Positions 4,076 through 56,508 of a stretch of 64,000 bases of DNA are shown here, one piece after another. The stretch is from Burkholderiaceae bacterium (GTDB lineage Bacteria; Pseudomonadota; Gammaproteobacteria; Burkholderiales; Burkholderiaceae): positions 1-64,000 of the forward strand of contig CANJBQ010000009.1 in assembly GCA_947472645.1 (NCBI GenBank), given 5' to 3'. Position 1 is the stretch's first letter. Each line of letters begins with the position of its first letter. The notes under the pieces are model-generated. The model saw only the letters and a program-made list of their open reading frames with translations, had not been told where the DNA came from and ran no database searches. The translations under genes were made by a program, and so were the position numbers.

Positions 4076-4085
4076 GACAATCTCC

Positions 4086-4568: not shown

Positions 4569-4584
4569 AATCAATTTCCTTTCT

Positions 4585-36721: not shown

Positions 36722-37345
36722 CTATTGATTAACGGGCGACTGAGGATCAAGCAACAAAGCCATAACATCCTGAATTTGTTTTTCAGTAAGAATTTTAAAA
36801 TGTCCAAAGCGCGGCATATTGCTACAAGCGTTATACGCCTTGGAATTATTAATCCGGTTCCAGGTGTACTGAATTAATTCAGGGGAGTTACCACGATTCT
36901 TCCCATAATTCCAAAGGGTTGGTCCAATATTGCCATGGGAGATTTCTTTCTGATCTATTTGATGACAGTTATAACAACCACCACCATTGACCATCGCTGC
37001 GCTATCAGACCAAGTCACTCCGCGCCCACTTTGTGCAATCGCTTCGCCACTCTTCCAATCACCAAGATATTTTCCATCCGCAGGTGCTTGTATCGTCGCC
37101 ATATTTATTTTTTGTATTTCTAGCGACTTTGCTGCTCCTGCTTTACTTTTGATCAACCTTGGCTCAGAACAAAGCTGTTGAGTAGCATCTTGTTGAATAC
37201 GATCAATACTTGCATTTCCCTCACTACGAAAACTTTCATACATCATTTTCTGAAACTGGGGATCAGATTTTTGTTGGGCATAGGTCGAACTCGTAACTAA
37301 GAAAAAAATTATCGATAACAAATATGTATAAGTGACAGATCTCAT
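36722..37345 (-). CDS. soxX: Sulfur oxidation c-type cytochrome SoxX
   Basis: NGGGCYNCHQID heme motif, GNIGPTLWNYGKNRG, ACSNMPRFGH; ATGA overlap with soxA. Confidence 0.92.
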   Translation of the reverse strand: MRSVTYTYLLSIIFFLVTSSTYAQQKSDPQFQKMMYESFRSEGNASIDRIQQDATQQLCSEPRLIKSKAGAAKSLEIQKINMATIQAPADGKYLGDWKSGEAIAQSGRGVTWSDSAAMVNGGGCYNCHQIDQKEISHGNIGPTLWNYGKNRGNSPELIQYTWNRINNSKAYNACSNMPRFGHFKILTEKQIQDVMALLLDPQSPVNQ

Positions 37346-38154
37346 CGTTTTAACCCTGGAGTTTGAATCACACCGCCATTGGCATTCATCGCCATATACA
37401 TCGAAAGCGCAACCGTGACATCTGAACCATAAATAGGAAATGCGACACGCTGTTGTCGAAAACAATCATTAAGACGTTGTTGCATCGTCCAAAATTGCCC
37501 ACTAGAAACTCGATACGCTGGCCATGCGCCCCATCCTGCAATAGCACCCTCATGCGTGGTGAGATTCGGTAAGTCTTGCAAACGAATACGACGTCCATCC
37601 TGTGCATGACAAGACGCACATGAAAAATCAAATGGTCCAGCTTGATAGTAAAAAGCTTTTTTACCCATCTCATACATGATTTTTTCTTTGGGGTGCGACA
37701 TGCTGACCTTGACTTTTTGTCCTTTGGAATGCGTCACTATATAAGCAACTAGAACGTCCATATCTTTTTTAAGCCCCACACCAAACTTAGCCTCAATGAT
37801 GTCTTTACTAGCAATGCCTTGAAGTTTTTCCATACAGGTCATGAGCCGTGACTCAAGATCTTGAACGCGTTGCGTGTCTTTAAAATACCTGGGTAGCTGA
37901 GCTGCGGCGCCGTCTACCACCCCAGCGCCCAGTCCAAGGTCACACTTTTCTAACGAAGCATTAAATGGTCCAACTGGTTTTTTCCAAAGCTCTTCACCCG
38001 CCATCTCGTATAACTCCGATGGATTACCATCGGCGATCATCTCGCGATATCTTGCAATGTCGTCAGCTGTATTTTGTGCAAAAGATATATGGCTAATGTT
38101 TAAAAAAAGCACAAAGTATATTAACTTTAATAGATGAATAGATGAGGATTTCAT
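37342..38154 (-). CDS. soxA: Sulfur oxidation c-type cytochrome SoxA
   Basis: CDLGLGAGVVDGAAAQLPRYFKDTQRVQDLESRLMTCM and CASCHAQDG; signal peptide. Confidence 0.93.
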   Translation of the reverse strand: MKSSSIHLLKLIYFVLFLNISHISFAQNTADDIARYREMIADGNPSELYEMAGEELWKKPVGPFNASLEKCDLGLGAGVVDGAAAQLPRYFKDTQRVQDLESRLMTCMEKLQGIASKDIIEAKFGVGLKKDMDVLVAYIVTHSKGQKVKVSMSHPKEKIMYEMGKKAFYYQAGPFDFSCASCHAQDGRRIRLQDLPNLTTHEGAIAGWGAWPAYRVSSGQFWTMQQRLNDCFRQQRVAFPIYGSDVTVALSMYMAMNANGGVIQTPGLKR

Positions 38155-38165
38155 GGATTGTTGGC

Positions 38166-38474
38166 TTAAGAAACAATCAATTCATCAGTGCGTTTATCGC
38201 CTTTGGTATCAACCCAACTTACAACGAGTCGATCGCCTTTGGCTCCTTTAAATTTAAAGTTCAAAAAAGGGTCTTTGGAAACAGCCGAGCCAAACTGAGC
38301 ATTAAAAACCTCTTTGCCTTGTGCTTGAACATTCAAAAGAGTGATAAACCAAGCCGGTATTGTTTTACCATTGGCATCTTTACGCTGCCCCGACTCCATA
38401 TCATGCCTCATTAAAATTTTGACATCAACAACACCATCTTTTTCAGTAGCTCTTAAGCGCATTGGATCTGGCAT
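38166..38474 (-). CDS. soxZ: Thiosulfate oxidation carrier complex protein SoxZ
   Basis: VVDVKILMRHDMESGQRKDANGKTIPAWFI; 102 aa between soxA and soxY. Confidence 0.94.
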   Translation of the reverse strand: MPDPMRLRATEKDGVVDVKILMRHDMESGQRKDANGKTIPAWFITLLNVQAQGKEVFNAQFGSAVSKDPFLNFKFKGAKGDRLVVSWVDTKGDKRTDELIVS

Positions 38475-38509
38475 ATATCTTCCTTAAAAAAAACTTATTA
38501 TGTAATCAA

Positions 38510-38962
38510 TTAACCGCCACAGCCGCCAAGAGTCACTTTGATCTCTTTGACAACCATGAACCATTTTCCCTCTGATTTCACTAAAGCATATACATTAGAT
38601 GTCTGCGCCATTTTGATCCTTGAAGTAACAAAAGACTCGGTCCCAGATGGCAGAAAAAATAACGCCGCTAAAGTATTGGGATTCTTATCCACCAAAATGG
38701 CGATTTGCTCAACTTTTAAATTCGAAGAAATGCTAATGGGTACGACCGCCCCATTTTCAGCAATATCTGGGGCATTAAAAGTTATTGCTGCAGATTTTTC
38801 GGGAGCACCAGTATTCAACACCTTAAATACTTCATCTAAGCTTTTTCCGTCAAAAGCCGATTTATTCCACTCAGCAGCTTGAGCATGACTAATCAAACCT
38901 ACAGATGCCATCAAACCAAAGATGGCGGAGTGTTTTAACAATATCCTACGCTGTTGATTCAT
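38510..38962 (-). CDS. soxY: Thiosulfate oxidation carrier protein SoxY
   Basis: C-terminal swinging arm KVTLGGCGG; signal peptide; start trimmed to MNQQRRIL. Confidence 0.95.
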   Translation of the reverse strand: MNQQRRILLKHSAIFGLMASVGLISHAQAAEWNKSAFDGKSLDEVFKVLNTGAPEKSAAITFNAPDIAENGAVVPISISSNLKVEQIAILVDKNPNTLAALFFLPSGTESFVTSRIKMAQTSNVYALVKSEGKWFMVVKEIKVTLGGCGG

Positions 38963-39031
38963 AAAATCCCCTTCATTCAAACTAATCTACTATTTTATAG
39001 GTAGTTTGAATAATCGACTTGAATCTGATGT

Positions 39032-39892
39032 TCAGAGAAGATTAATGGGTAGCTTTAAGTAGGAGACGCCATTTGACTCTGGTGAGGGAAATTCTCCAGC
39101 ACGGATATTGATTTGCACGGAGGGCAAAATTAAGGCTGGCATTTCCAAGGTCTTATCTCTTGCCGTTCGCATTTCAACAAAATCAACTTCAGAAACACCA
39201 TCATGAACATGGATATTACCTTTTCGTTGGAGAGCGACCGTAGTCTCACACTGGATCATCCGACCCTCTGGTGGGTAATCATGACACATAAAAAGTCGTG
39301 TACTCAGTGGTAGATTTAAGATTTTTTGAATCGATTGATAGAGAGCCTTCGCATTACCACCTGGGAAATCACACCGTGCTGTTCCAACATCAGGCAAAAA
39401 CATCGTATCGCCGACAAACACACAATCACCTATCTGATAAGCCATGCATGCGGGTGTATGGCCTGGCACATATAAACATTGAATACTTAACTGACCACAA
39501 AATATTTCTTCATTTTCATCTAGTAAATAATCAAACTGCTGACCATTTGGAATAAAGGTTGAATCTAAGTGAAAAATTTCTTTAAAAACCTTTTGTACTT
39601 GCTGAATTTGCGATCCAATCGCTAGCTTTCCACCTAGCTTACGCTTCAGATAAGGCGCCGCTGTTAAGTGGTCAGCATGAGCATGAGTCTCTAAAATAAA
39701 AACTACATCTAACTTATGATCCTGAATAAATGTAATCACCTCATCAGCACTGTGTGTTGATGTTCGACCTGACTTCGTATCGAAATTCAAAACAGAATCA
39801 ATAATTACACACTGACTAGAGACTTTTTCGTAAACAACATAGGTGAATGTTCCTGTCGGTGCATCAAAGAATGATTCAACAATAGGGTTCAT
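39032..39892 (-). CDS. MBL-fold metallohydrolase, persulfide dioxygenase (ETHE1/Blh)-like
   Basis: ETHAHADHLTAAPYLKRKLGG, CLYVPGHTPACMAYQIGDCVFVGDTMF, FMCHDYPPEGR. Confidence 0.87.
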   Translation of the reverse strand: MNPIVESFFDAPTGTFTYVVYEKVSSQCVIIDSVLNFDTKSGRTSTHSADEVITFIQDHKLDVVFILETHAHADHLTAAPYLKRKLGGKLAIGSQIQQVQKVFKEIFHLDSTFIPNGQQFDYLLDENEEIFCGQLSIQCLYVPGHTPACMAYQIGDCVFVGDTMFLPDVGTARCDFPGGNAKALYQSIQKILNLPLSTRLFMCHDYPPEGRMIQCETTVALQRKGNIHVHDGVSEVDFVEMRTARDKTLEMPALILPSVQINIRAGEFPSPESNGVSYLKLPINLL

Positions 39893-40066
39893 ATTCTTCT
39901 CTTAGGTTGGTGAACTACGTAGGTAAATTATAGGTGAAGATAAACAATATAACCAAAATTTATTAGTTAATTACTTTATTATCTATATACTATAAAGAAC
40001 CTCCTACGAAGTATGGCATCACACGTGATGTTAATAGATTTAAAGTACCCCTTTTAAAGAGATTAT

Positions 40067-40873
40067 ATGGCTCCTGTATTTTTTGAGACCGCTGGATTAG
40101 GTATTTTAATCGGTATCATCATGGGCATTACCGGCGCTGGTGGAGGAATTCTGTCTGTACCGATTCTAGTATTTACACTGAATTTACCTATCGCTCAAGC
40201 TAGTCCAATCGCACTATCAGCAATTACATTGGCCGCCGCAGCTGGAGCTTTAATTGGCTTTCAGGGAAAGGTTCTTCGCTACAAAGCCGCTTTCTTAATG
40301 TCTTTGATAGGACTCCTTCTATCACCCATTGGTCTATGGCTAGCACAAATTGTGCCAAATGCACCATTGCAAGTTCTTTTTGGGATCATCCTTCTCTATG
40401 TTTCCGTTAACTTGTTAAATCAAGCTCATCAGGAAAAAAAAGGGCTATCTTCTTTACGAAACCAACCACCTTGTCAACTGAATACCTTAACCGGTAAATT
40501 CAACTGGAGTATCTCCTGCGCTAAATGCTTAATGTTTACTGGAGCACTAGCTGGTTTTCTATCAGGTTTACTCGGGGTTGGTGGCGGATTTGTAATTGTC
40601 CCCGCTCTCAAGAAATTTACTGACCTCCCCATGAAATCAATCGTGGCCACATCCCTTGGCGTCCTCGCTATTGTTAGCGCCGGTGGCGCAACAGTATCTC
40701 TTTTCATCGGCACGCTCAATACAAAGATTGCCATTCCTTTCGCCCTAGGTACGCTCATTGGACTGCTGATCGGCAAAGCTTTGGAAAAGAAAATTAGCGG
40801 GCCGAGAGCGCAGCAAATGTTTGCAACTCTAGCCCTTTTTGTAGGAATCAGTCTAATTGCGAAATCGTTTTAG
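40067..40873 (+). CDS. Sulfite exporter TauE/SafE family protein
   Basis: MGITGAGGGILSVPILVFTLNLPIAQASPIALSAITLAA and GLLGVGGGFVIVPAL repeats. Confidence 0.88.
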   Translation: MAPVFFETAGLGILIGIIMGITGAGGGILSVPILVFTLNLPIAQASPIALSAITLAAAAGALIGFQGKVLRYKAAFLMSLIGLLLSPIGLWLAQIVPNAPLQVLFGIILLYVSVNLLNQAHQEKKGLSSLRNQPPCQLNTLTGKFNWSISCAKCLMFTGALAGFLSGLLGVGGGFVIVPALKKFTDLPMKSIVATSLGVLAIVSAGGATVSLFIGTLNTKIAIPFALGTLIGLLIGKALEKKISGPRAQQMFATLALFVGISLIAKSF

Positions 40874-41958
40874 ACTTCGTTCTTGATCGGGTTACGAATT
40901 AAGCCAATCCCAGTAACTTCAGATTCCATTACATCACCAGGTTTTAAAAATTCAGGCGGCTTGCGACTAAACCCTACCCCTGGCGGAGTACCCGTAGCAA
41001 TAATATCGCCAGCCTCTAGTGTTAATCCTCGTGATAACTCGGCAATAATGCTCGGAATCTTAAAGAACATTTGTTTGTAAGATCCATTTTGTTTTTCAAC
41101 ACCGTTGACTCGGCATATTAAACGCACACTATCTAAATCTACCGCATTGGCCGTCATGATCCAAGGCCCCATCGGCCCATAGCCATCTATGCTCTTACCT
41201 TTAAACCACTGCCCACTATGGCGTTTTTGTTGGACATCTCTCAGTGTCGTATCGTTATAGACTGAATAACCGTAGACATAATCCATAGCTTGAGCTTCTG
41301 GGATATTTTTTCCAGTTTTACCGATGATTAGAGCTAACTCAACTTCCCAATCAGCTTCCGGAGAATTAGACGCGTCATACGGAATAGGATCGAAAGGCCC
41401 ATTCATTGTGTATACACCTTTGGTAAAAAATACTGGATTTTTTGGATACTCTTTAATACTCTTATCCGCTCTTGCTTGCATACCCTCTTCAAAGTGATCT
41501 AAGTAGTTCCAACCAACAGCATAAATATTACTTTGTGGCCGAGGTATAGGTGAAAGTAGTTTCACTTGATTCATCAGTGGTCTCATCATTCGCTTCTTCA
41601 TGCCCTGTGAAACAATTTGCTGTACTTGTGCAAGACCAATCTCACCAGCATGAATGAGTGACAACATGGAATAAGGATCAAAACCGAGTTTTGACCCACG
41701 CCCTTCAATGGCAATATCCAAAACTTGTCCATCATTGAGAACCACGCCTAGGCGAGGTTTTTCTTGAGCACTTGGTACAAAGGTAACTAAACGTAATCCT
41801 GGCTTTACCATCGGAGGTGGAACTGATTCTGGACTCATATTGACGGAACTCTGAGCTTGAGATTGAACGGAACCACCTAATAACAAACCTGAGGCTACTG
41901 TACCTTTGATCAAATCTCTACGACTGATGTTGAAATTAGTATTATCTTTCTGATCCAT
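40870..41958 (-). CDS. Fumarylacetoacetate hydrolase family protein with Tat-like signal
   Basis: FAH fold: AVGWNYLDHFEE, PVFFTKG, EADWEVELALIIGKTGKNI, DIIATGTPPGVGFSRKPPEFLKPGD. N-terminal NISRRDLIKGTVASGLLLGGSVQSQA. Confidence 0.88.
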   Translation of the reverse strand: MDQKDNTNFNISRRDLIKGTVASGLLLGGSVQSQAQSSVNMSPESVPPPMVKPGLRLVTFVPSAQEKPRLGVVLNDGQVLDIAIEGRGSKLGFDPYSMLSLIHAGEIGLAQVQQIVSQGMKKRMMRPLMNQVKLLSPIPRPQSNIYAVGWNYLDHFEEGMQARADKSIKEYPKNPVFFTKGVYTMNGPFDPIPYDASNSPEADWEVELALIIGKTGKNIPEAQAMDYVYGYSVYNDTTLRDVQQKRHSGQWFKGKSIDGYGPMGPWIMTANAVDLDSVRLICRVNGVEKQNGSYKQMFFKIPSIIAELSRGLTLEAGDIIATGTPPGVGFSRKPPEFLKPGDVMESEVTGIGLIRNPIKNEV

Positions 41959-41980
41959 GATTTATTCTCCTTCTGTCTTT

Positions 41981-42979
41981 TTATAAATTGAGTTCAGTTT
42001 TTGCCTGGGCAACTGACATCTGTTTTGATAACTGTACTCCATTTTTCACAGCTAATATCTCAGCCATCACACTCACTGCAATTTCTGAGGGGGTTTTACT
42101 CCCAATATAAATACCAATTGGACCGCGTAACTTTTCTAAAGACTCGTGGGTATGGTCAAAATGTTCAATTAAGCGTTGTTTGCGAGACTCATTGTTGCGG
42201 CGTGAGCCAATCGCACCTACATAAAATGCATCCGTCTGTAATGCCTCTATTAGGGCCAAATCATCTAACTTAGGATCGTGGGTCAAGGCAACAATACATG
42301 TTCTCGAATCAGGCTTTAAATTCGTCACCATATCATCTGGGGAACCATGATCGAGGTTTACACCAGGGACGGACCATGAACTTCGATATTCATCTCTTGG
42401 ATCACAAACCGTCACTGAAAACCCATTAAATAAAGCCATCGTCGCTAAATACTCACTCATTTGACCAGCACCAATAATCAACATCCTATATTCAGGTCCA
42501 AAAGTATTTACTAGATGTTGAGTACTAAGGCTTAATTCTGCAGGTTTGTCTGTGGCCATTAACTTTACCTGGCCAGTTGCTAATTCCACCTGACGCGAGA
42601 CTAAAGAACCGTGACTTAATAAATCAATAAGTTCTCTTAATGATTGTGCATCCGGGTTGTATTCCAAAAGTAACTCTAAGGTTCCGCCGCAAGGCAAACC
42701 AAAACGATGTGCTTCATCAGCAGAAATTCCGTAGCGCAAAAATTGCGGTACCTGATCCGCTAAAGCATGTGCTTGCGTATTTTGTCGAATTAAATCGTCC
42801 TCTATACATCCCCCAGAAACACTCCCAGTGACTCGACTATCTTCACACATGGCCATAATTGACCCAATGGGTCTAGGCGAAGACCCCCAAGTCCTCACAA
42901 CAGTAACAAGTAAGGCTTTTTTATTCTCCATCCGCCAAGCTAGTAATTGACGTAACACAGTAATATCAATATTTTCCAT
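41981..42979 (-). CDS. xdhC: XdhC/CoxI family protein (Mo-hydroxylase maturation)
   Basis: VTVVRTWGSSPRPIGSIMAM, GSVSGGCIEDDL, GLPCGGTLELLLE, YVGAIGSRRNNESRKQRL. Confidence 0.9.
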   Translation of the reverse strand: MENIDITVLRQLLAWRMENKKALLVTVVRTWGSSPRPIGSIMAMCEDSRVTGSVSGGCIEDDLIRQNTQAHALADQVPQFLRYGISADEAHRFGLPCGGTLELLLEYNPDAQSLRELIDLLSHGSLVSRQVELATGQVKLMATDKPAELSLSTQHLVNTFGPEYRMLIIGAGQMSEYLATMALFNGFSVTVCDPRDEYRSSWSVPGVNLDHGSPDDMVTNLKPDSRTCIVALTHDPKLDDLALIEALQTDAFYVGAIGSRRNNESRKQRLIEHFDHTHESLEKLRGPIGIYIGSKTPSEIAVSVMAEILAVKNGVQLSKQMSVAQAKTELNL

Positions 42980-42996
42980 CTGTAATAAATCTTCCT

Positions 42997-44775
42997 TTAT
43001 TGAGGATCTTGATATGGTAACTCGATATACATCCCAGTTTTACTTTGGAAATCCATCATATCCTCTTCAGAGTCTATATCAAAGGTGAAATGATGATTAT
43101 TCGATGCCCATTGAGTTACCCTGTGTGGATGTAAATCCATAAAATCTCGAACCGTCATCTTCTCATTACAATTGATGATTTCTTGTAAAGCTTTGCCAGA
43201 AAGTAATACTGGATTACCACGTTGACCATTTACCATGGGGAGTAAAAAATCACCTGAGGGCATGACCTTAAATTGTTCAATGAGCTGTCGTAAATCAGAC
43301 TCATCAAGATAAGGTTGATCCCCTAACACCATGAGTACAACATCCAAGTCCTTTGTTTGCTGATAGATAGTCTCTAATCCTATACGAACAGAACTCGACT
43401 GCCCTCTCGCGGGATCAGAATTAGTTACCAGATGAACATCGGGTAGATAAATCGACGAACGAATTTGCTGCTCATAATAACCCGTCACAATCACTACGGG
43501 TGTAGTAACAAATCGACCTACCGCCTCTAAATGACGATTTAGTAACGTTTTACCATCTATCTTCATCAATGATTTAGGAATCGATCCTAAGCGAGTACCC
43601 TGGCCAGCCACTAATAATATAGCGCCAATTTGAATTTTCTTTTCACGCTTTAATTTTTGCAACATCTTAACGTTTGGGTCTGAATACACCGGCATGATGT
43701 GAATACCCGCAGGATCTAAACTGATAAATAAACGATCATTTTTCAGTAATTGAAAATCTTTTACCATCCGTGTACTTAACTCTAAATACATCATTTCTGA
43801 AAAAGGTAAATCTAAAGAAAATGTGATGCTCGAGATATCCCCTAACTGCATAATCTCTTCCACTTTGGCGCTAATACAATTCGTACGACCTTGATTGTCT
43901 CTAGATAACTCAACAAACTCACCGGAGATGACCCATTTGACTTCGGTGTTATCTGGCAAGCGCCCCTTATCTTCAATCTGTAATTTCATCGAGTGCACTC
44001 CTTGCCCCCATTGCAAATATGCCCTACGCACATCACTAGAAGAAAAATCACTCTTAAAAAAAGTACCTGAATAGATATCTGTTAAACCAACGAGTTCTGC
44101 AACACGCGCGTTACGTGGACTAGAAAAAATATGGGCAGGTGATGCTTGTTGTAATGTTTTACCTTGATCCAAAATACACATCCGATCACAAAGCAGTCTA
44201 GCTTCTTTTAAATCATGCGTCACCATCACGATAGGGATATCAATGCGTTGCCTGAGCTTAATCAATTCTTCATACAAGATTTTTCGTGTTGGATGATCGA
44301 CTGCTGAAAACGCTTCATCAAGTAAAAGCAACTTTGGATTCCTGGCAAAAGCTCTTGCTAAAGCTACTCTCTGCCGCTGTCCGCCAGAGAGCTCATGCGG
44401 GAAACGCTTTTGTAAATCTAGCAAGCCCATGTCCCTCATTAAACTTTCAACCAGTTCCGAACTTTGATGTTGAGCAAGAGCCAGAAAAATATTGTCATAG
44501 GTATTTAAGTGGGGAAATAGTGCGTAGTTCTGAAAAACCATTCCAACACTTCTCTGAGCAGCTGGAATAGATATCTGATGCGTTGCATCAAACCAAATTT
44601 GACCATCCACCTGAATCAAACCATCATGCAATGGCATGAGTCCCGCCAGAGATCTCAATGCACTTGTCTTACCACTCCCGGATGGTCCTACCAAAGCTAA
44701 TAGCTCTCCCCGCTGACACTCAAAAGACATGTCTAAAAGAACAGGATTTTGGGAACGTAATACCGCTTTTAGCAT
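42997..44775 (-). CDS. Fused molybdate ABC transporter ATPase (ModC) plus MobA-like NTP transferase (MocA-type)
   Basis: N-terminal ABC cassette GPSGSGKTSALR / SGGQRQRVALARAFA / LLLDEAFSAVD with TOBE-like region. From about 43640 downwards, IGAILLVAGQGTRLGSIPKSLMKIDGKTLLNRHLEAV...VLGDQPYLDESDL...NGQRGNPVLL. Confidence 0.88.
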   Translation of the reverse strand: MLKAVLRSQNPVLLDMSFECQRGELLALVGPSGSGKTSALRSLAGLMPLHDGLIQVDGQIWFDATHQISIPAAQRSVGMVFQNYALFPHLNTYDNIFLALAQHQSSELVESLMRDMGLLDLQKRFPHELSGGQRQRVALARAFARNPKLLLLDEAFSAVDHPTRKILYEELIKLRQRIDIPIVMVTHDLKEARLLCDRMCILDQGKTLQQASPAHIFSSPRNARVAELVGLTDIYSGTFFKSDFSSSDVRRAYLQWGQGVHSMKLQIEDKGRLPDNTEVKWVISGEFVELSRDNQGRTNCISAKVEEIMQLGDISSITFSLDLPFSEMMYLELSTRMVKDFQLLKNDRLFISLDPAGIHIMPVYSDPNVKMLQKLKREKKIQIGAILLVAGQGTRLGSIPKSLMKIDGKTLLNRHLEAVGRFVTTPVVIVTGYYEQQIRSSIYLPDVHLVTNSDPARGQSSSVRIGLETIYQQTKDLDVVLMVLGDQPYLDESDLRQLIEQFKVMPSGDFLLPMVNGQRGNPVLLSGKALQEIINCNEKMTVRDFMDLHPHRVTQWASNNHHFTFDIDSEEDMMDFQSKTGMYIELPYQDPQ

Positions 44776-44776
44776 C

Positions 44777-45454
44777 TTAGGTCACTTGCCGTTGAATATG
44801 ATTGGGTCGATGTAAAAAAAACTGAGTCAACAATATGGTTAAAAATGAAACGAATAAAAGCATCAGCGCCATAGCCCCAGCTTCATCCATATGAAGGGTT
44901 TGCATCTGATCGTAAATGGCAATCGAAATTGTGCGTGTTTGATTGGGAATGTTTCCACCCACCATGAGAACTACCCCAAACTCACCTAAGGTATGGGTGA
45001 AAGTCATGATTAAACCCGTCAAAATACCCTTCCACGCCAGCGGTAATTCAATTTTCAAAAGAGTGTGCCAAGTACTTAAGCCACACGTTTTAGAAGCATC
45101 CTTTAAGTCCTGAGGAATACTTTCAAAGGCTCGTATAATTGGTAACCAGGCAAACGGGATATTAAATAATAAACTCGCTAACCAAATGCCTGTAAATGAA
45201 AAAACTAAAGATACATGGGTCAATTGATAAAAGTAATTACCGAGCCAACTCCCCCTGCCAAGACCCACCAATATGTAATAGCCTAAGACCGTTGGCGGCA
45301 AGACTAAGGGCAAGGTGAAAAGTACTTGAAAAGATTGATTCACTAAACTAGACTGACGTTGTAGCCAGTAGGTAATAAAAATACCCGAGGGGATTAAAAA
45401 TAGCGCCGTTAATAGGGCTAATTCAATAGAAAGACGGAGGGATTCCCAATCCAT
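44777..45454 (-). CDS. modB: Molybdate ABC transporter permease ModB
   Basis: PLVLPPTVLGYYILV, IIRAFESIPQDLKDASKTCGLSTWHTLLKIELPLAWKGILTG, HTLGEFGVVLMVGGNIP. Confidence 0.93.
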   Translation of the reverse strand: MDWESLRLSIELALLTALFLIPSGIFITYWLQRQSSLVNQSFQVLFTLPLVLPPTVLGYYILVGLGRGSWLGNYFYQLTHVSLVFSFTGIWLASLLFNIPFAWLPIIRAFESIPQDLKDASKTCGLSTWHTLLKIELPLAWKGILTGLIMTFTHTLGEFGVVLMVGGNIPNQTRTISIAIYDQMQTLHMDEAGAMALMLLFVSFLTILLTQFFLHRPNHIQRQVT

Positions 45455-45474
45455 CTTAATAGATACCCTTTAAA

Positions 45475-46293
45475 TTATTCATAACCATATTTTCGCCAAA
45501 TTTTACGAGCTTCATCCGTTTGTAAGAATTGATAAAAACTTTTTGCGTTCTGAGTGGCAGTTTTCATCAAAACCATTTTCTGCAAAATTGGCGTGTGTAA
45601 TTTTTCTGGAATGACCGTATAAGGGCCATTGATCGGAGGATTCGGAGGTAGCACCATTGAAAGCGGTACCATGCCCGATTGTGCGGCTTGTGTTTTTAAA
45701 AATAGCATCGTTTGACCAACATCACTACCCATCACTAAACGTGGTTTGACTAAGTCCGATAATCCATACATCCGTAAACTTTCAGTCGCAGCAAGGCCAT
45801 ATGGTGCCAAAGCTGGATTCGCAATGGCAAATTTATCAATTCGTCCATCTTGCAAAGCGCGCTTTAGATCAGCAAAATTTTGGTCTAAAATCACCTTACT
45901 ATTTGGTGAAACCAGAAGCACTAATCTTCCGCGAGCGTAGACAGTACCAATTCCTTGCGTCAGCGCTAAATTCGCTAATCGGTCGGCAAATTCTTCATTC
46001 GCTGACAGGAATATATCAAACTGAGCCCCCTGCACAATTTGTTGGTAAAAGTTACCAGACGCTCCATAAACCACATCAACAGATTGTTTAGTCTGCTCCT
46101 TAAAAAGAGCCGACAGCTCATTTAAGACCCCATTCAAATTTGCTGCAGCAGCAATTCTTAAAGGAGGTAGCTCAGCAGCATGAGTCGGCAATATCATTAC
46201 TGAAAAGCCCATTAAAAAACAGGCTTGGTAAGCTATTTTGCACAAAACAGACCGAAACACAGAGCTTGTCATTTTTATCCTTATTGATGGCAC
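45475..46293 (-). CDS. modA: Molybdate ABC transporter substrate-binding protein ModA
   Basis: LRIAAAANLNGVLNELSALFKEQT, VYGASGNFYQQIVQGAQFDIFLSANEEFADRL. The true start may be slightly downstream. Confidence 0.93.
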   Translation of the reverse strand: MPSIRIKMTSSVFRSVLCKIAYQACFLMGFSVMILPTHAAELPPLRIAAAANLNGVLNELSALFKEQTKQSVDVVYGASGNFYQQIVQGAQFDIFLSANEEFADRLANLALTQGIGTVYARGRLVLLVSPNSKVILDQNFADLKRALQDGRIDKFAIANPALAPYGLAATESLRMYGLSDLVKPRLVMGSDVGQTMLFLKTQAAQSGMVPLSMVLPPNPPINGPYTVIPEKLHTPILQKMVLMKTATQNAKSFYQFLQTDEARKIWRKYGYE

Positions 46294-46312
46294 TCATCAT
46301 GGATTATAAAGA

Positions 46313-46340
46313 ACAAAGCCCACAACGAAGTGGGCTTTGT
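46313..46340. terminator. Hairpin terminator between prx and modA
   Basis: ACAAAGCCCAC-aacgaa-GTGGGCTTTGT, 11-bp perfect stem. Confidence 0.75.
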
Positions 46341-46357
46341 TTGTAAACGACAGAGAT

Positions 46358-46996
46358 TTACTTATTCGGCTGTGGAGTAATCCGTAAATAAGGTCTTGGT
46401 GAAGTAACACCTTTTGGATACTTAGCCTTAATCACTTCTGGATCTTGTACAGTCATTGGAATAATCACATCATCGCCATCTTTCCAATTTCCAGGAGTTG
46501 CAACTGTGTATGCATCGGTGAGTTGTAATGCATCAACAACACGTAAAACTTCATCAAAGTTACGACCTGTACTCATTGGATAGGTAATCATCAAGCGCAC
46601 GACTTTCTTTGGATCGATGACGAATAAAGAACGAACCGTTGCAGTTGCAGATTGGTTCGGATGAATCATGTCATATAAATTGGATACCGTCTTATCTTCG
46701 TCAGCAATAATTGGAAAACCTACAACCGTGTGTTGGGTTTCTTCAATATCTTTGATCCAAGTTTTATGTTTGTCCGCAGGATCAACTGATAAAGCAATGG
46801 CTTTAACATTGCGTTTATCAAACTCTGGCTTTAACTTCGCCGTTAAACCTAGCTCCGTTGTGCAAACGGGCGTGAAATCTGCCGGATGCGAAAACAAAAT
46901 AACCCAAGAGTTACCTGCCCATTCGTGAAATTTAATTTTTCCAATAGAAGAGTCTTGCTCAAAATCGGGGGCTTGATCGCCTAAACGTATTGTCAT
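46358..46996 (-). CDS. Peroxiredoxin (1-Cys Prx6-like)
   Basis: ILFSHPADFTPVCTTELG, LSVDPADKHKTWIKDI; start trimmed to MTIRLGD. Confidence 0.92.
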   Translation of the reverse strand: MTIRLGDQAPDFEQDSSIGKIKFHEWAGNSWVILFSHPADFTPVCTTELGLTAKLKPEFDKRNVKAIALSVDPADKHKTWIKDIEETQHTVVGFPIIADEDKTVSNLYDMIHPNQSATATVRSLFVIDPKKVVRLMITYPMSTGRNFDEVLRVVDALQLTDAYTVATPGNWKDGDDVIIPMTVQDPEVIKAKYPKGVTSPRPYLRITPQPNK

Positions 46997-47048
46997 GTTA
47001 TTTATCCTGTTGTCAATCATGTAGTTCTCATATTATGCACGATTATGA

Positions 47049-48011
47049 TCAGTTTTTTACTAGATTGACCAGCGGCGCTTCATTCAACCAAGCTTCTAAA
47101 GCTTTTACCACCCCAGATGTCAGCCTTTTATAGACAGGCTCTGACACAAAGCCCAAATGTGGAGTCATAAGAATATTACTAATTTGTCTAAATGGATCGT
47201 CTTTAGGTAATGGCTCTTCATCAAAAACATCAATTGCTGCCATCGCCGGTTTACCCATCTTTAATGCCTTTACCAAATCAGCAGTTTGAATCAACGTGGA
47301 TCGGGAAGTATTCACTAGAAGTGCATCAGATCGCATCAATGAAAGCGTTTGAGCATTCATAATGCCTCGGGTAGTTTGTCCGGGAACTAAATGTAAACTC
47401 ACAATCCTAGAGGTGCTTAACAACTCTTCTTTTCTAACCGATTTGACACCATGCTCCGCAGCCCGCTCAGGAGTCATGTTGGGACTCCATGTCACAACGT
47501 CCATTCCAAAAGCAAGACCTACTTTAGCTACCTTAGCACCAATATTGCCTAAACCTAAAATACCTAAACGCTCTCCAATTAGAGCAGGTAAGACTGAATG
47601 TTGATTACGCCATAGTCCATGCTCGATTAATTGACTTTGTTCATTAACCCGTTTGTAGGCAGCCAATATGAGAGCCCAAGTTAATTCCACTGTTGTTTCT
47701 TTGGAAGGACCAAACTCCGTATAACTAATAGGAATTTGACGCTGCTCTAAAACGTCGTAATCCACTAATAAATTGCGACTCCCTGTGAAAACCACATACT
47801 TTAATCGAGGTAATTGATCAATGAGATCCTTTCGAAAAGGTGTCCGATCTCGGCTCATCACAATCACATCGGCAGTCTTTAAAGCTGCGATTAAAGCATC
47901 ACCCACCAAACGATCTTGGTGAATATCAAGAGTAGCTTTGGCAGTAATAACGGGGTTGGTCTTGAGTATCGATAAAGAATTTTCGAAGTCATCTAAAACG
48001 ACTATATGCAT
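47049..48011 (-). CDS. D-2-hydroxyacid dehydrogenase family protein
   Basis: GERLGILGLGNIGAKVAKVG, VNTSRSTLIQTADLVKAL, MTPHLGFVS. Confidence 0.88.
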   Translation of the reverse strand: MHIVVLDDFENSLSILKTNPVITAKATLDIHQDRLVGDALIAALKTADVIVMSRDRTPFRKDLIDQLPRLKYVVFTGSRNLLVDYDVLEQRQIPISYTEFGPSKETTVELTWALILAAYKRVNEQSQLIEHGLWRNQHSVLPALIGERLGILGLGNIGAKVAKVGLAFGMDVVTWSPNMTPERAAEHGVKSVRKEELLSTSRIVSLHLVPGQTTRGIMNAQTLSLMRSDALLVNTSRSTLIQTADLVKALKMGKPAMAAIDVFDEEPLPKDDPFRQISNILMTPHLGFVSEPVYKRLTSGVVKALEAWLNEAPLVNLVKN

Positions 48012-48042
48012 GTATTGCTCCAAGGTAAAGGCTAAATAGTTG

Positions 48043-48339
48043 TCATACTAACGGGATAAATAGCTCTGATTTTCTTTGCGTAGGAAGTCCACTAGCTAAG
48101 GCTAACGCATGAATTTTTTCTGTGAGTTCAGCAGAAACTCCCTCCGGATGACGATACACCTCCATCCAAGTCTCATTTCCATCTGAACCAAGCTCAGGAC
48201 GTTGCAAAATTGTAAATTCCAATGAGGCATCAAACTTGCTTACCTGAGTTTGTAAACGTTCAATGCAAAGACGATATTTTTCATGCTCAGATGGCATTAA
48301 TTTATAGTACACAAATAATGTTGCTTGTTGCATCAGCAT
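48043..48339 (-). CDS. DUF4936-like small protein
   Basis: 98 aa; FVYYKLMPSEHEKYR..., ETWMEVYRHPEGV. Family recalled from memory. Confidence 0.55.
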   Translation of the reverse strand: MLMQQATLFVYYKLMPSEHEKYRLCIERLQTQVSKFDASLEFTILQRPELGSDGNETWMEVYRHPEGVSAELTEKIHALALASGLPTQRKSELFIPLV

Positions 48340-48352
48340 GACCCTCTATTAT

Positions 48353-49336
48353 CTAAAGTTTTTCCATATTTAACTGCACAACTAATTTTTTCCATTTGGC
48401 GACTTCATTAGCAATGATCGATTTGAAATCTTCAGGTGTACCACCTTTAGGATCAATGCCAACACTCTGAAACTTCGCTCTCACCTCAGGATCTTTTAAG
48501 GCTAAATTCACTTCCTTATTTAAACGATCAACTATAGCGCGCGGAGTTTTTGCTGGAAGCGCCATGCCATTCCAAGCCACGACATCATAACCCTTGATAC
48601 CACTTTCACTCATCGTCGGAACCTGAGGAAATCCCTCATACCGCTTCGCACTTGAAACAGCCAGCGCCCTCATATCGCCATTTTTAAGGGATTGCATCGC
48701 TGGGGAGATTACCTCAAAAGCCACAGATATATCTTTCGACTTTAAAGACATAAATAAATTCGATGTCGCCTTATAAGGAATAATCTCGACTTGCAATCCT
48801 GCTAAATTTTTAAATAGACTTGCCGCCATATGCTGTCCACTTCCAATACTGACAGAACCCAAATTATATTTTTCAGGATTAGCTTTAGCCTTCGCAATAA
48901 AGTCCGCTACACTTTGAATATCGGAATTTTTATCGACCAACATGACGACATCAAATGAACCCATCAAGGAAACTGGCTCAAAATCTTTTTGAATATCGTA
49001 AGGCAATTTTTTAAAGATCGCTTCGCTCACAGCATTACCATAATTCAAATGCAAAATCGTATAGCCATCAGGATCAGCTGATGCGACAGCCTGTGCAGCA
49101 ACAATACCTCCGGCGCTAGGACGGTTATCAACAACAATTTGTTGCCCCATGGAATCTGACATTTTTTGGGCGATCATACGTGCCGTAATATCTGCAACGC
49201 CACCAGGCCCATAACCCAAAATCAAACGAATCGGTTTATTAGGATATCCGTCTGCAGCGTGAACTAACGCATTGATGCCTGTAAGGCATAACAGACTCAG
49301 TAGAACTTTAAATAATTTGACATTCAATAATTGCAT
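48353..49336 (-). CDS. Tripartite tricarboxylate transporter substrate-binding protein (TctC/Bug)
   Basis: YPNKPIRLILGYGPGGVADITARMIAQKMSDSMGQQIVVDNRPSAGGIVAAQAVA. Confidence 0.93.
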   Translation of the reverse strand: MQLLNVKLFKVLLSLLCLTGINALVHAADGYPNKPIRLILGYGPGGVADITARMIAQKMSDSMGQQIVVDNRPSAGGIVAAQAVASADPDGYTILHLNYGNAVSEAIFKKLPYDIQKDFEPVSLMGSFDVVMLVDKNSDIQSVADFIAKAKANPEKYNLGSVSIGSGQHMAASLFKNLAGLQVEIIPYKATSNLFMSLKSKDISVAFEVISPAMQSLKNGDMRALAVSSAKRYEGFPQVPTMSESGIKGYDVVAWNGMALPAKTPRAIVDRLNKEVNLALKDPEVRAKFQSVGIDPKGGTPEDFKSIIANEVAKWKKLVVQLNMEKL

Positions 49337-49348
49337 AAATACCCTTTT

Positions 49349-49924
49349 TTATTGTCCAATACCTTCCCAACGTTTGGTCAGATTTGTTTCTATATCAAAT
49401 AGATCCAAACAACGACCAACCGTGTGGTTAACCATTTCATCTAGCGTCGTTGGCTTTGCATAAAAAGCAGGTACTGGCGGCATGATAATTGCTCCGTTTT
49501 CACAAGCCTGTGTCATCGACTTTAAATGCCCCGCATGCAAAGGCGTTTCACGAACCAACAGCACTAAGCGACGACGCTCTTTTAATACAACGTCAGCAGC
49601 TCTAGATAGCAGGCTCGTTGTGCCACCCCAGGCGATTTCTGATAAAGACCGAATCGAACAAGGCGCAACTACCATACCCATCGTTTTAAATGAACCAGAA
49701 GCAATCGTTGCGCCAATATTCTTAATATGATGAACTTCTGTCGCCAACGCTTCAACATCTTTAACAGTCAAGTCCAACTCTGAAGATAATGTTAACCTTG
49801 CAGATTCAGACATCACGAGGTGTGTCTCGATATCGCTATTGATTAACGCTTGCAAAATACGAACGCCATAAATAATTCCAGAAGCACCACTAATGCCTAC
49901 GATTAATCTTTGAGGACTGGTCAT
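49349..49924 (-). CDS. ubiX: UbiX-family flavin prenyltransferase
   Basis: LIVGISGASGIIYGVRILQAL, PCSIRSLSEIAWGGTTSLLSRAADVVLKERRRLVLLVRETPLH. Confidence 0.93.
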   Translation of the reverse strand: MTSPQRLIVGISGASGIIYGVRILQALINSDIETHLVMSESARLTLSSELDLTVKDVEALATEVHHIKNIGATIASGSFKTMGMVVAPCSIRSLSEIAWGGTTSLLSRAADVVLKERRRLVLLVRETPLHAGHLKSMTQACENGAIIMPPVPAFYAKPTTLDEMVNHTVGRCLDLFDIETNLTKRWEGIGQ

Positions 49925-49964
49925 TTTGTCTTTCTATGCTTTCATCAAATTCTTCAAACCTCTA

Positions 49965-51596
49965 TTATGACGGTTCTTCCGGCCTAAATTTCGTTTCTGC
50001 TTTTACATCATTTCTGATCTGTTTTTTACTGATTTTGCCGTTTTCTAGGTAATGGCCCTGAGCTGCTCTTTTCGCTGCCGCATCCCAAACGGGGGACCAA
50101 TCCCCTAAAGAGTATCCAAACCAAGGTGCTTGTGGCTTTAATTTAGGCAACCCCATCTTCTCCCAAAGCTCCTTGGCATGCTCCATATATTCTTGAGTTG
50201 GCAGCGCAAGAGGAGGCATCGGACTTTTCATCGTAGCGTCCATCAGCATTGTGGAGTCTTCTTCGCCATCATTTTCTCGCTTTGGACCGTGTCCCTGCCC
50301 ACGATGCTCGAGCGTCTGAACATCAACAACAGGATTCATGCGATAGGCCATCGCCCATAAAATAGCATCGGCATTATCGGGATCAATATCTTCATCAACA
50401 GCAATACAGATTTTTCCACAATCACCCTTGAAAAAAGCTGCTCCATACAGAGCACGCCAGATTTCAGATTTTGGGACATTTTTCTCAACAGTAATAATCG
50501 TGACTCGGAGCAGTCCCGTCAATGGCTCATGTAAGGAAACCTTTTTAATGCCCTTGATACCTAAACTTTTTCTAAGGTGATTTAAAAACAAAGGCTCATA
50601 AGCTACCCGTTTAATCACACTTGACTCACTTGGGGCTACTTGACTGATGTAGGAAGGAATCACGGGTTGGCGACGATGGGTAATTGCTGTAATGATCATT
50701 GGCAAATTAAACTCTTCCAATGCTACGTGACCATGGGATTCACCAAACGGAGCTTCTGGCTCAAGCCACTCCAAATCGATCAGACCTTCAATCACAATCT
50801 CTGCCTGCGCTGGAACATTCAAATCTACGGAATGTGCCTTAGTGATTTGAATAGCTTCACCAGCTAAACCACCAGCAACATCAAATTCATCAACTCCAAT
50901 GGGTAATTTTTGAGGCCCCATAAAAGCAACGTAAGGTGGGCACCCCAATACAATAGCGCATGGCATAGTCTTATGACCGGCATTTTTCCAAGCCAAATAA
51001 TGCAAATACCCCCCAGCACCACCAACACGAGTTGCCATTCGAACCACTAAACGATCAGGCGCCTTTAATTGGCAACGATAGGTTCCCATATTTTGACTAC
51101 CTGTTACCACATCTTTCGTGATGACATTGGTCGCCGTTAAGGTCGGCGCACTATCAAAACCTGGTGTAGAAATGGGTACCGATAACATGTCAAGACCATT
51201 ACCCTCACCCTGAAGTGCAGCACCTTCAAGAATAACTTCTTGGCACTCAGGATTATCAACAAAAACCGGGGCAATCGGATGCTGGATCGCTTGGTCCCAT
51301 TTATTTTGAATCTCTTCAACTGCGCAATCCATACCTACACTATAAATTTGACGATTCGCCGCAAGTCCGCCAACTAATACAGGAATATCGTATTTTCTAC
51401 CCTGTGCATTAATAATATTGGTAAACAAAAATGCCTTACGCTCAGCTTCTGCCATCCCGCCAACAAACTGCCAACGAACCAGGGGATGCATCTCCGAGTC
51501 CTTATCAATAGGTTGAGTAATCTCTTGTAAAAGACCTTGTTTTCTTAACTCATCAATATGTTGATGAAGATCTCTATATTTGGGTGCCTGGCTCAT
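49965..51596 (-). CDS. UbiD-family decarboxylase (non-ubiquinone type by context)
   Basis: YRDLHQHIDELRKQGLL, GTYRCQLKAPDRLVVRMATRVGGAGGYL, PEAPFGESHGHVALEEF, AVDEDIDPDNADAILWAMAYR. Confidence 0.9.
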   Translation of the reverse strand: MSQAPKYRDLHQHIDELRKQGLLQEITQPIDKDSEMHPLVRWQFVGGMAEAERKAFLFTNIINAQGRKYDIPVLVGGLAANRQIYSVGMDCAVEEIQNKWDQAIQHPIAPVFVDNPECQEVILEGAALQGEGNGLDMLSVPISTPGFDSAPTLTATNVITKDVVTGSQNMGTYRCQLKAPDRLVVRMATRVGGAGGYLHYLAWKNAGHKTMPCAIVLGCPPYVAFMGPQKLPIGVDEFDVAGGLAGEAIQITKAHSVDLNVPAQAEIVIEGLIDLEWLEPEAPFGESHGHVALEEFNLPMIITAITHRRQPVIPSYISQVAPSESSVIKRVAYEPLFLNHLRKSLGIKGIKKVSLHEPLTGLLRVTIITVEKNVPKSEIWRALYGAAFFKGDCGKICIAVDEDIDPDNADAILWAMAYRMNPVVDVQTLEHRGQGHGPKRENDGEEDSTMLMDATMKSPMPPLALPTQEYMEHAKELWEKMGLPKLKPQAPWFGYSLGDWSPVWDAAAKRAAQGHYLENGKISKKQIRNDVKAETKFRPEEPS

Positions 51597-51661
51597 TATT
51601 TAAATCTCTTTATTAATTAATCAAAAATCATATCACCTGAAATCAGAAAATAACTCATACC

Positions 51662-52585
51662 TCAAAAATTCATATTCATACACAAATCATCAATTGATTT
51701 CTCGGTATCCCGCCCCTCTTGGGCTAACCACTCCGTGAATTTTTCGATCAAAGGATTTTCAGGAATCACCAAGGGCGCATTTAGGTAATAACGCCTCGTT
51801 CTTGCCGCCAAAAGTCCTAAAGGTAAGATTAACTTTCCAGAAATCACCTCATCAGCAACTAAAAATAATGGCACCAAAACAATCCCCAATCCTTCTGCTG
51901 CCGCTTGTAATGCAAAATACATTTGCTCAAATTGAAGTAGATTAGCCGGCTTCAAATGAGAGGCTTTCGCGTCTTGCAACCAATCCTTCCAAGCTAATGG
52001 CTCTGTGTCATAACTAATTAATGTATGTTTTGCTAAATCAGCTACCTGATGAAGATGGTTTTTTTCTATCAAATCAGGGTGACAAACCGGCACAATTGTT
52101 TCTGTCATAAATGGAATAGATACGTGATTCGGTAATGCGTTCGAAGAGCCTCGAATCGCAACATCGTACTGACCAGAGCGAAAATCAACTGCCTCTATCG
52201 AAGTGGTTAACTTGATTTCTAAATGGCTCATCTTCTTTTGAAAGGAGGAAATTCTCGGAATTAACCACCTCAAGGTAAATGTTGGAGGGGCACTAATTTG
52301 AAAAATATTACCGGAAGATCTATCTAAAAGCTGTGAAGCGCTGACGGCAATTCGGTCTAACGCTGGCGTTATAGAGGATAAAAATTCTTTACCCGCCGGT
52401 GTCAACGTGACCTGAGACTTATTACGGTTAAACAAATCCAACCCCAACCAGGACTCTAAAATGGCAACTTGTTTGCTAATGGTGCCATGAGTGACAAGTA
52501 ATTCATGGGCAGCTTTAGTAAAACTCACATGACGAGCGGCTGCCTCGAAAGCTCGAATAGCGTTTAAAGGTGGTAGTTTTCTCAT
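51662..52585 (-). CDS. LysR-family transcriptional regulator (GcvA-like)
   Basis: LPPLNAIRAFEAAARHVSFTKAAHELLVTHGTISKQVAILESWLGLDLFNR. Confidence 0.92.
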   Translation of the reverse strand: MRKLPPLNAIRAFEAAARHVSFTKAAHELLVTHGTISKQVAILESWLGLDLFNRNKSQVTLTPAGKEFLSSITPALDRIAVSASQLLDRSSGNIFQISAPPTFTLRWLIPRISSFQKKMSHLEIKLTTSIEAVDFRSGQYDVAIRGSSNALPNHVSIPFMTETIVPVCHPDLIEKNHLHQVADLAKHTLISYDTEPLAWKDWLQDAKASHLKPANLLQFEQMYFALQAAAEGLGIVLVPLFLVADEVISGKLILPLGLLAARTRRYYLNAPLVIPENPLIEKFTEWLAQEGRDTEKSIDDLCMNMNF

Positions 52586-53620: not shown

Positions 53621-54094
53621 ATGAAAAACATTTCTATAGAACTGGTAATCAATGGCCAAACCATTCAATCGACGGTTGAACCGCGCACAACTTTAGTTGA
53701 TTTTTTACGCGATGAACTCCGTTTAACTGGCACCCATGTAGGTTGCGAACACGGCATCTGTGGAGCCTGTACAGTATTGATGAATGGCGATCCCATAAGG
53801 TCTTGCTGCATGTTCGCCGTGCAAGCCAATGGCGTTGAAATAACCACTGTAGAGGGTTTAGCACCTGAGCGTGGACAACTCTCCAAAATTCAAGATGCTT
53901 TTTGCGAAAAACATGGTTTGCAATGTGGTTTTTGTACCCCTGGAATGCTCATTACTTGTCAAGGACTACTCAATAAAAATCCGCATCCGACTGAGCATGA
54001 AATCCGTGAAGCTATTAGCGGCAACTTATGTCGCTGCACAGGATATCAACAAATTGTTGATGCTGTGGTTTATGCGACGAGGGAATCAACATGA
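53621..54094 (+). CDS. (2Fe-2S)-binding subunit of Mo hydroxylase (CoxS-like)
   Basis: GCEHGICGACTV, CGFCTPGM...NLCRCTGY. Confidence 0.95.
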   Translation: MKNISIELVINGQTIQSTVEPRTTLVDFLRDELRLTGTHVGCEHGICGACTVLMNGDPIRSCCMFAVQANGVEITTVEGLAPERGQLSKIQDAFCEKHGLQCGFCTPGMLITCQGLLNKNPHPTEHEIREAISGNLCRCTGYQQIVDAVVYATREST

Positions 54095-56508
54095 CCCAAA
54101 ATAACTCATCTCCCCCATCTCATTACGATCAATTTAAATATATTGGCAAACACCGCCGTGCGGTAGAACATCGTCGCTTTGTCGTTGGGAAAGGTAATTA
54201 CGCTGGGGATGTTTTAAAACCCGGAACTCTTCATGTTGCGATTGTTGCAAGCCCTTACGCCAGCGCAAAAATACTGAGAATTGATGCCAGCCAAGCTTTA
54301 GCACTACCCGGTGTAAAAGCAGTAGTTACTGGTGAAGAAATCTATGCCGCAGTATTGCCAGTCTTACCTGGTGTCGATGCCCCAGAAGTTAAACGTTATC
54401 CTCTTGCAAAAGATGTAGTTAGATATTCTGGGGAGTGGGTTTGTGCCATCGTTGCAATTTCAAGAGCGATTGCCGAAGACGCCGCAGAACTCATTCAAGT
54501 GGACTATGAAGAACTCCCTTACATCATGGATCCTGAAGAGGCGATGCAAGACGCCGCCCATATTGTGCATCCAGATGCGAAAACAAATCTCATCTTTAAT
54601 CGTCAATTTATTTGGGGGCCCGTCGACGCTGACATGGCCAAAAGCGCGCACCAATTAAGCTATCGTGTTAAATGGGCAAGAAGCTCAACAGTCCCTATCG
54701 AGACTTTTGCACTGACCTGCGAATGGTCTGATGCGACCGGAATATTAGATGTTTGGGCATCCGTTCAAATGCCTAAATATCCCGAACAAATTGCGAGTTC
54801 ATTACAACTACCAACGAACGCCGTACGGGTCCACTACGATATTGATGTAGGAGGAAGCTACGGTGTTAAGCGTGGACTTAAACACGCCATCTTAGTAGGC
54901 TATTTGGCCAAAAAATTAGGTAAGCCCATCCGATTTATCGAAGATAGATTAGAAAATATGCGGGGCGGTGATATGCAAGGCCCTGACCGTCTTTTTGAAG
55001 TCACCCTTGGATTTGAAGCAGATGGTGAAATCACTTGTATGAAAATGCGCGCACTTGAAGATATCGGCGCTTATGCCGGTCGCTCACCCTTGCAACTCGG
55101 CAAACCCATTGGCGCGATTTGTGGTCCTTATCGGATTAAAAGTGTGGCCTATTTAGCCCAAGCAGTCCTTACCAATAAGACTCCCCAAGAAGCTGTTCGG
55201 GGTTTTGGTCAAGCCCCTACCAACTATGCTTTAGAAACAGGTATCGATAAAGTGGCTAGATTCTTGAAAATGGAACCGATTGCCCTGCGTAAGCGCAATC
55301 TCATTAACAAGGATGAATTTCCTTACCTCATACCTAGCGGCACATCGTATGACTCAGGGGATTATGCAACGGTGCTGGACAAAGCCCTGAATCATGCTAA
55401 CTTGGAAAGCTTAATCATTGAGCGCGATGCTCTGCGAGCACAAGGTTTACTTGCAGGAATCGGTGTTTCTACTTGTCTTGAACCTTCTGGTGGTAATTCT
55501 TCTTTTGAGCCTTTATTTAACCCAAAAAATGAAACTACAACTTGGATGGAATCCTGCGTGGTTCGGATAGATCTTGGCGGTCAAGTGACAGCCTTGATGG
55601 CCACATCGACCTCTGGACAATCTCATGAAACTTTGGTCTCTACAGTTCTAGCAGAAATTCTTTTACAAAATCCGGAATCAATCCGCGTACTTCACGCCGA
55701 TTCACTCAATGCTTTACCTTCAAATAGTCCAGTAGGTAGCCGTATGGCCATTATGCTGGGGGGCGCCGCCGCAGGTGCGGCTAAAAAATTACGCACAAAA
55801 TTAATTGCTATTGCCGCAAAACAATTAGAACTTACCCCAGATCAACTAGTTTTTAATGGTACTGAAGTTTATGCCAGCAATAATCCCAATCAGAAAGTGA
55901 GTTGGTCAGAACTCGTGGCCATTGCACATCGCAAATATCACCTTCTGCCTAAAGATATGGAGCCAGGTCTGCAAGAAAAATTCGTGTGGGAAGTACCCAC
56001 CGGTGGTGACTTACCCGATGAGCATGGTCGCGTACAAATGTATCCTTGCCACTCCTTTGAGTCTCATGTGGTGTTTGTGAGTATTGATCGAGAAACCGGG
56101 AAATCAACGATTCGTAAATACGTATGTGGCCATGATTGCGGAGTCATGATTAGCCCTGATGTCGTTCATGGTATGACCTATGGTGGTATCGCGCATGGCA
56201 TCGGCGCAGCACTAATGGAAAAGTTCGCCTACTCTAACGAAGGTCAGTTCTTATCTGGAACATTTATGGATTACCTACTCCCGAGCTCTTCTGAAGTTCC
56301 TGCAATTTCCATTGTTGATCACTGTACCCCTTCTCCTTTAACCGAATTTGGGCAAAAAGGATCTGGCGAAGCAGGTTATTTAGGAAGCCCTGCCGCAATT
56401 GCAAACGCCATTAATGACGCATTAGCTACAATCAATACTTCGATTGACTATTTACCAATGACACCCAATGCCATTTGGGACGCTATACAAAACCAAACAA
56501 CTTCTTGA
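54091..56508 (+). CDS. Molybdopterin-binding large subunit of Mo hydroxylase (CoxL-like)
   Basis: DVGGSYGVKRG, EAVRGFGQAP, C-terminal GQKGSGEAGYLGSPAA. Lacks the AYRCSFR loop of form I CO dehydrogenase. Confidence 0.92.
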   Translation: MTQNNSSPPSHYDQFKYIGKHRRAVEHRRFVVGKGNYAGDVLKPGTLHVAIVASPYASAKILRIDASQALALPGVKAVVTGEEIYAAVLPVLPGVDAPEVKRYPLAKDVVRYSGEWVCAIVAISRAIAEDAAELIQVDYEELPYIMDPEEAMQDAAHIVHPDAKTNLIFNRQFIWGPVDADMAKSAHQLSYRVKWARSSTVPIETFALTCEWSDATGILDVWASVQMPKYPEQIASSLQLPTNAVRVHYDIDVGGSYGVKRGLKHAILVGYLAKKLGKPIRFIEDRLENMRGGDMQGPDRLFEVTLGFEADGEITCMKMRALEDIGAYAGRSPLQLGKPIGAICGPYRIKSVAYLAQAVLTNKTPQEAVRGFGQAPTNYALETGIDKVARFLKMEPIALRKRNLINKDEFPYLIPSGTSYDSGDYATVLDKALNHANLESLIIERDALRAQGLLAGIGVSTCLEPSGGNSSFEPLFNPKNETTTWMESCVVRIDLGGQVTALMATSTSGQSHETLVSTVLAEILLQNPESIRVLHADSLNALPSNSPVGSRMAIMLGGAAAGAAKKLRTKLIAIAAKQLELTPDQLVFNGTEVYASNNPNQKVSWSELVAIAHRKYHLLPKDMEPGLQEKFVWEVPTGGDLPDEHGRVQMYPCHSFESHVVFVSIDRETGKSTIRKYVCGHDCGVMISPDVVHGMTYGGIAHGIGAALMEKFAYSNEGQFLSGTFMDYLLPSSSEVPAISIVDHCTPSPLTEFGQKGSGEAGYLGSPAAIANAINDALATINTSIDYLPMTPNAIWDAIQNQTTS

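Follow-up and report, generated by a model that had tools for sequence, protein, structure and literature searches.

A molybdate-importer-type ATPase and a MocA-type cytidylyltransferase domain in one reading frame in freshwater Polynucleobacter

MCD is the cofactor of many Mo hydroxylases of the xanthine-oxidase family. In the window, that is, the whole stretch of 64,000 nt analysed here (contig CANJBQ010000009.1, assembly GCA_947472645.1), a single gene seems to encode both the ATPase of a molybdate importer (ModC) and the enzyme that would make this cofactor (MocA), raising the question of whether the two are truly one protein and, if so, what their joining might do for the cell. The original prediction had placed an uninterrupted 592-aa frame at 42997-44775; the frame stands, but its strand had to be corrected to minus, the plus strand of this interval being full of stops. 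The predicted gene order on one strand (modA-modB-fusion-xdhC-FAH) is borne out by the domain and family matches of all neighbours, as follows:

40870..41958, minus strand: FAA_hydrolase-family protein, the downstream gene (FAA_hydrolase match)
41981..42979, minus strand: xdhC-family Moco chaperone (XdhC match)
42997..44775, minus strand: modC::mocA fusion gene, 592 aa, ATG start, stop included
44777..45454, minus strand: modB, molybdate permease (TIGR02141, over the curated NCBIfam cut-off)
45475..46293, minus strand: modA, molybdate-binding protein (TIGR01256, over the curated NCBIfam cut-off)

The spacers in this operon are 1-22 nt long (1 nt from modB to the fusion and 17 nt from the fusion to xdhC), and ModB, which adjoins the fusion, is present in a single copy in the genome of the window. 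The FAA_hydrolase gene is found at this place in only part of the fused species; the N-terminus of its product looks twin-arginine-like by eye (ISRRDLIKG...), which suggests export. In the gap that separates modA from the preceding peroxiredoxin gene is a terminator-like hairpin of 12 pairs (46341-46312, minus strand), which leaves only ~20 nt to the listed start of modA; no Moco riboswitch or other Rfam element was detected in 37000-52000.

A Pfam search placed ABC_tran (8e-34) and NTP_transf_3 (9.7e-28) within the same protein, in which a complete ModC-type ABC ATPase (residues ~1-365) is joined through 16 linker residues to an equally complete MocA-type cytidylyltransferase domain (residues ~382-592), with the following parts:

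44308..44733, minus strand: ABC_tran nucleotide-binding domain (residues ~15-156)
43681..44085, minus strand: OB/TOBE-like C-terminal region of the ATPase half (residues ~231-365)
43633..43680, minus strand: linker (residues 366-381)
43000..43632, minus strand: MocA-type cytidylyltransferase half (residues 382-592)
43129..43623, minus strand: NTP_transf_3 domain (Pfam, residues ~385-549)

The ATPase motifs are intact (Walker A GPSGSGKT, signature LSGGQ, Walker B LLLLDE and, further on, the H-loop H187). Over its first 372 residues, the protein matches importer ATPases of the PhnT2/PotA/WtpC/CysA/ModC group; none of the curated cut-offs shown is reached, and the ModC equivalog TIGR02142 scores 184 bits, below its cut-off of 285. 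Sequence matches in the PDB include PotA, MalK and the ModC of M. acetivorans, and the first ~375 residues of an AlphaFold model resemble CysA, MalK, PotA and ModC. Pfam gave no TOBE match in the fusion protein; the OB/TOBE-like region is assigned by alignment to a TOBE-bearing ModC (L105) and by model likeness. Further, the ModC of unfused relatives (366-379 aa) ends where the ATPase half of the fusion ends. With the TIGR02142 cut-off missed, we base the ModC identity on the surrounding operon and on the closest homologue from an unfused modABC, and the ATPase half probably serves molybdate uptake.

For the last 220 residues, the best model is MocA (TIGR03310, 114 bits) and the second a DVU_1551-type NTP transferase (100), followed by the weaker GlmU (<=58 bits), IspD (34) and MobA (~28-36) models. 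The MocA score lies below the equivalog cut-off of 186 bits, which says little because this narrow cut-off is passed by no protein of the 398 genomes of the order and is reached in one of 14 control genomes. The best PDB matches are 3d5n and the MocA-related 2we9. The half carries VAG, GQxSSV and LGDQP-type motifs, which we take to be MocA motifs, at the positions where the MobA of the same genome, encoded separately in a moaA-mobA-moeA cluster, has CGG, GPLAG and PCDSP, presumably the MobA equivalents. The remaining NTP_transf_3 matches that were read are GlmU-like or sugar-nucleotide/CMP-Kdo-type enzymes, and the fusion is the sole MocA of the window genome. A second domain belonging to an unrelated nucleotidyltransferase, which had been named beforehand as a way for the prediction to fail, is rejected by the family scores, with TIGR03310 the best model, and by the MocA-type motifs. 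The fusion protein also has no MoCF match, that is, no MoCF_biosynth domain N-terminal to NTP_transf_3. Taken together, the family searches, the operon context and the position of the sole MocA beside the sole ModB support the ModC and MocA identities that had been proposed, each half scoring below its own NCBIfam equivalog cut-off, and the C-terminal half is likely to have MCD-synthase activity.

Of 186 Polynucleobacter genomes, 15 carry the fusion as a frame of 587-603 aa, counted as congeneric genomes with the TOBE-MocA join in one frame; in one of them a contig end interrupts the gene. In public genomes, a scan recovered 13 loci from the isolates P. kasalickyi VK13 and P. rarus MT-CBb6A5 and from MAGs; each has the two halves in one frame, which in one MAG is split over two contigs. 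The other fused proteins are 55-86% identical to that of the window. The fusion directly follows modB in every fused genome and is directly followed by xdhC in 14 of the 15 (the exception being G015), and 14 of the 15 fused species have it as their only MocA-like protein. An additional stand-alone MocA is found in the MAG G544 (5% contamination) near a Mo-hydroxylase gene (G544:C72:8246-8860), and could be either a second enzyme or contamination of the MAG. Two records titled Thermoflexus hugenholtzii JAD2 (L082, L086) encode Polynucleobacter-type genes; they are the same contig as G025, which is placed in Polynucleobacter, and the title looks wrong. Across 14 species the ATPase and MocA motifs are kept with small variants (LSGGQC and LSDQP in G015; LGDLP for LGDQP in four species). 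Both halves are under purifying selection, with pairwise dN/dS, for which dS is near saturation in some pairs, of 0.03-0.07 for the ABC domain, 0.03-0.17 for the OB/TOBE-like region and 0.06-0.15 for the MocA domain.

How the fusion might have arisen can be read from its unfused relatives. In the unfused Polynucleobacter genomes that we inspected, mocA is separate from the modB-modC pair and frequently adjoins a different xdhC; the ModC of these genomes (369-399 aa) is 38-44% identical. Three genomes (G016, G461 and G462, with loci L042, L122 and L121) keep modA, a peroxiredoxin gene, mocA and xdhC together, with modBC ~280-400 kb away; this is possibly the arrangement that preceded the fusion, and we rejected the idea that these genomes are secondary splits of it, as no ABC remnant lies beside their stand-alone mocA. 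The fused domains form one clade in the MocA tree (94/94), nested among the stand-alone MocAs of the genus; six unlabelled rows in this clade are loci of fused genes, so that the seven label changes counted on the tree are a labelling artefact. The ATPase halves likewise form one clade (99/96), whose sister (99/98) is not the usual Polynucleobacter ModC but the 366-aa ModC of an ordinary modABC set in a different family (L105, L106); this tree has long branches, and we are unsure of the donor. With one clade for each half, it is most likely that the fusion arose once, and the simplest history would be that a foreign modABC arrived upstream of a native mocA-xdhC pair and that the modC stop was then lost.

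The genomes that carry the fusion are also rich in Mo hydroxylases. The window itself holds the three Mo-hydroxylase systems that had been predicted for it (at ~1685-5454, 53621-56508 and 59025-61711). Matches to PF20256 (MoCoBD_2), for which some proteins give two matches, number 10-29 in the 15 fused genomes (median 18, 7.0 per Mb) vs. 2-9 in 27 unfused congeners (median 6, 2.7 per Mb), which we selected and most of which are complete genomes; the medians differ about threefold. A Mann-Whitney test on these counts gives p ~1e-7, a value that overstates the evidence because the species are not independent, the fused ones being a single clade, and the unfused set was chosen. The fused species also have larger genomes.

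Hence, we favor the hypothesis, which we consider quite probable, that the protein is bifunctional, serving both as importer ATPase and as MCD synthase, and that it tethers MocA to the molybdate importer, with the history outlined above. The N-terminal half would be the ATPase of ModABC, two copies of which dimerise under two ModB subunits and drive import; the C-terminal half would add CMP to Mo-molybdopterin to give MCD; and the short linker would hold the MocA domain, presumably tethered to the membrane in this way, at the cytoplasmic face of the importer. The MCD synthase would then be made in a fixed ratio with the importer, at the membrane, near the point of molybdate entry and probably near XdhC. 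The substrate of MocA is Mo-MPT, made by MogA/MoeA, which ligate molybdenum to MPT (PMC2997495); since these enzymes act in between, direct channelling from importer to MocA is unlikely. A spatial or stoichiometric form of the coupling between import and MCD synthesis that had been proposed is plausible, and gains some support from the abundance of Mo hydroxylases in the fused genomes. A benefit of the tethering as such is speculative, and we hold it to be somewhat doubtful; less likely still is the broader picture of a membrane assembly point for import, MCD synthesis and XdhC loading, with MoeA/MogA recruited, that aided the expansion of Mo hydroxylases.

Alternatively, a stop might simply have been lost between operon neighbours, leaving two halves that work independently, with equal expression as the only gain. 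This explanation, to which we give even chances, shares the bifunctional part of our preferred hypothesis and denies only the benefit of tethering, and it would account well for the weak sequence conservation of the linker, in which 2 of 16 residues are invariant, for most of the genus keeping modC and mocA far apart and for MocA not acting on molybdate. It accounts less well for the constant length of that linker (16 residues in all 14 species aligned), for a join that tracks Mo-hydroxylase-rich genomes and for its retention in 15 of 15 fused species down to ~55% identity, among which we recognised no copy that had been split again. In fused Mo insertases, the linker can matter (PMC11489736); the AlphaFold model of the present protein renders its own linker as a short helix (mean pLDDT 76, pTM 0.43), and the inter-domain placement in this model is not reliable, given the pTM value.

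Two proteins could also be made from the one frame, with a separate MocA released by internal initiation or by proteolysis of the linker. A Met in GIHIMPVY just before the linker in all species, as well as further start codons in some linkers, would allow internal initiation, but no convincing Shine-Dalgarno sequence precedes these codons by eye, three species have no start codon in this place other than the Met within the conserved strand that closes the ATPase half, and the conservation of that strand itself explains this Met; we therefore regard such a split product as improbable. Even less probable is that the MocA domain has lost MCD synthesis and now regulates the importer by sensing a nucleotide or cofactor. 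C-terminal regulatory domains are common on importer ATPases and the MocA half scores below the MocA cut-off, as this explanation would have it, whereas the catalytic-site motifs are conserved and 14 species, all with many Mo-hydroxylase domain matches, have no MocA-like protein besides the fusion. Finally, the window genome is a draft of 103 contigs, but a frameshift, chimera or other sequencing error joining adjacent genes, which had been named as a possible refutation, has a negligible chance and is excluded by the occurrence of the same frame in 15 Polynucleobacter genomes, including those of the isolates P. rarus (on a 3.15 Mb contig) and P. kasalickyi.

Compared with known systems, the proposed bifunctional protein resembles the ModC of ModABC importers (M. 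acetivorans ModBC, PDB 3d31) in being a complete MalK/CysA-type ATPase with a nucleotide-binding domain, an OB-type C-terminal region and adjoining modA and modB, and differs in its extra MocA half of ~210 residues and in falling below the TIGR02142 cut-off. It shares the domain, the motifs and the genomic link to xdhC with MocA proteins (E. coli MocA/YgfJ; B. subtilis PucB; PMC2997495), except that its MocA domain is joined to an importer ATPase rather than free-standing. Proteins with MoCF_biosynth + NTP_transf_3, which appear in our surveys of the order and the phylum, also combine a Mo-cofactor domain with a C-terminal MocA-type domain, the partner being a molybdopterin-binding domain there and a transporter subunit here. 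In plants, the molybdate importer MOT2.1 interacts with Cnx1 of the Moco machinery (PMC10780190), a precedent for coupling importer and Moco synthesis, although this interaction is non-covalent, involves an unrelated transporter and is coupled to Mo insertion, that is, to the molybdate-using step.

Beyond the genus, a survey of 398 genomes at the level of the order and 399 at that of the phylum, made with a profile of this fusion, found no ABC-MocA fusion; an independent fusion with unlike domains could escape such a profile. Among the long MocA-bearing frames inspected elsewhere, L089 and most of L172-L179 turned out to be MoCF_biosynth+MocA, frames with an N-terminal part matching nothing (e.g., L101) are likely high-GC extensions, and for L091 and L093 no informative match was obtained. 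A 400-aa frame in family f18 of the same order (L099:1973-3172, genome G181) combines dihydrofolate reductase (DHFR_1, 4.4e-45) with a MocA-like NTP_transf_3, a further unusual fusion of this domain. Mo utilisation has been compared on a large scale in a study that lists molybdoprotein fusions and whose main text names neither ModC nor MocA (PMC6147048); our search, largely of papers available without subscription, found no literature on a ModC-MocA fusion. Hence, within the collections and literature searched, the concern that the fusion is already widely described did not materialise, and it seems to be an undescribed, new combination of two known families.

In general, the fusion of two genes is a sign that their products act together. 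The fusion described here would link the uptake of a trace metal to a step of cofactor synthesis that follows metal insertion, in the Mo-hydroxylase-rich genomes of a lineage of freshwater Polynucleobacter. With cultured carriers at hand (P. rarus and P. kasalickyi), the idea of Moco synthesis at the importer may be tested directly in bacteria.
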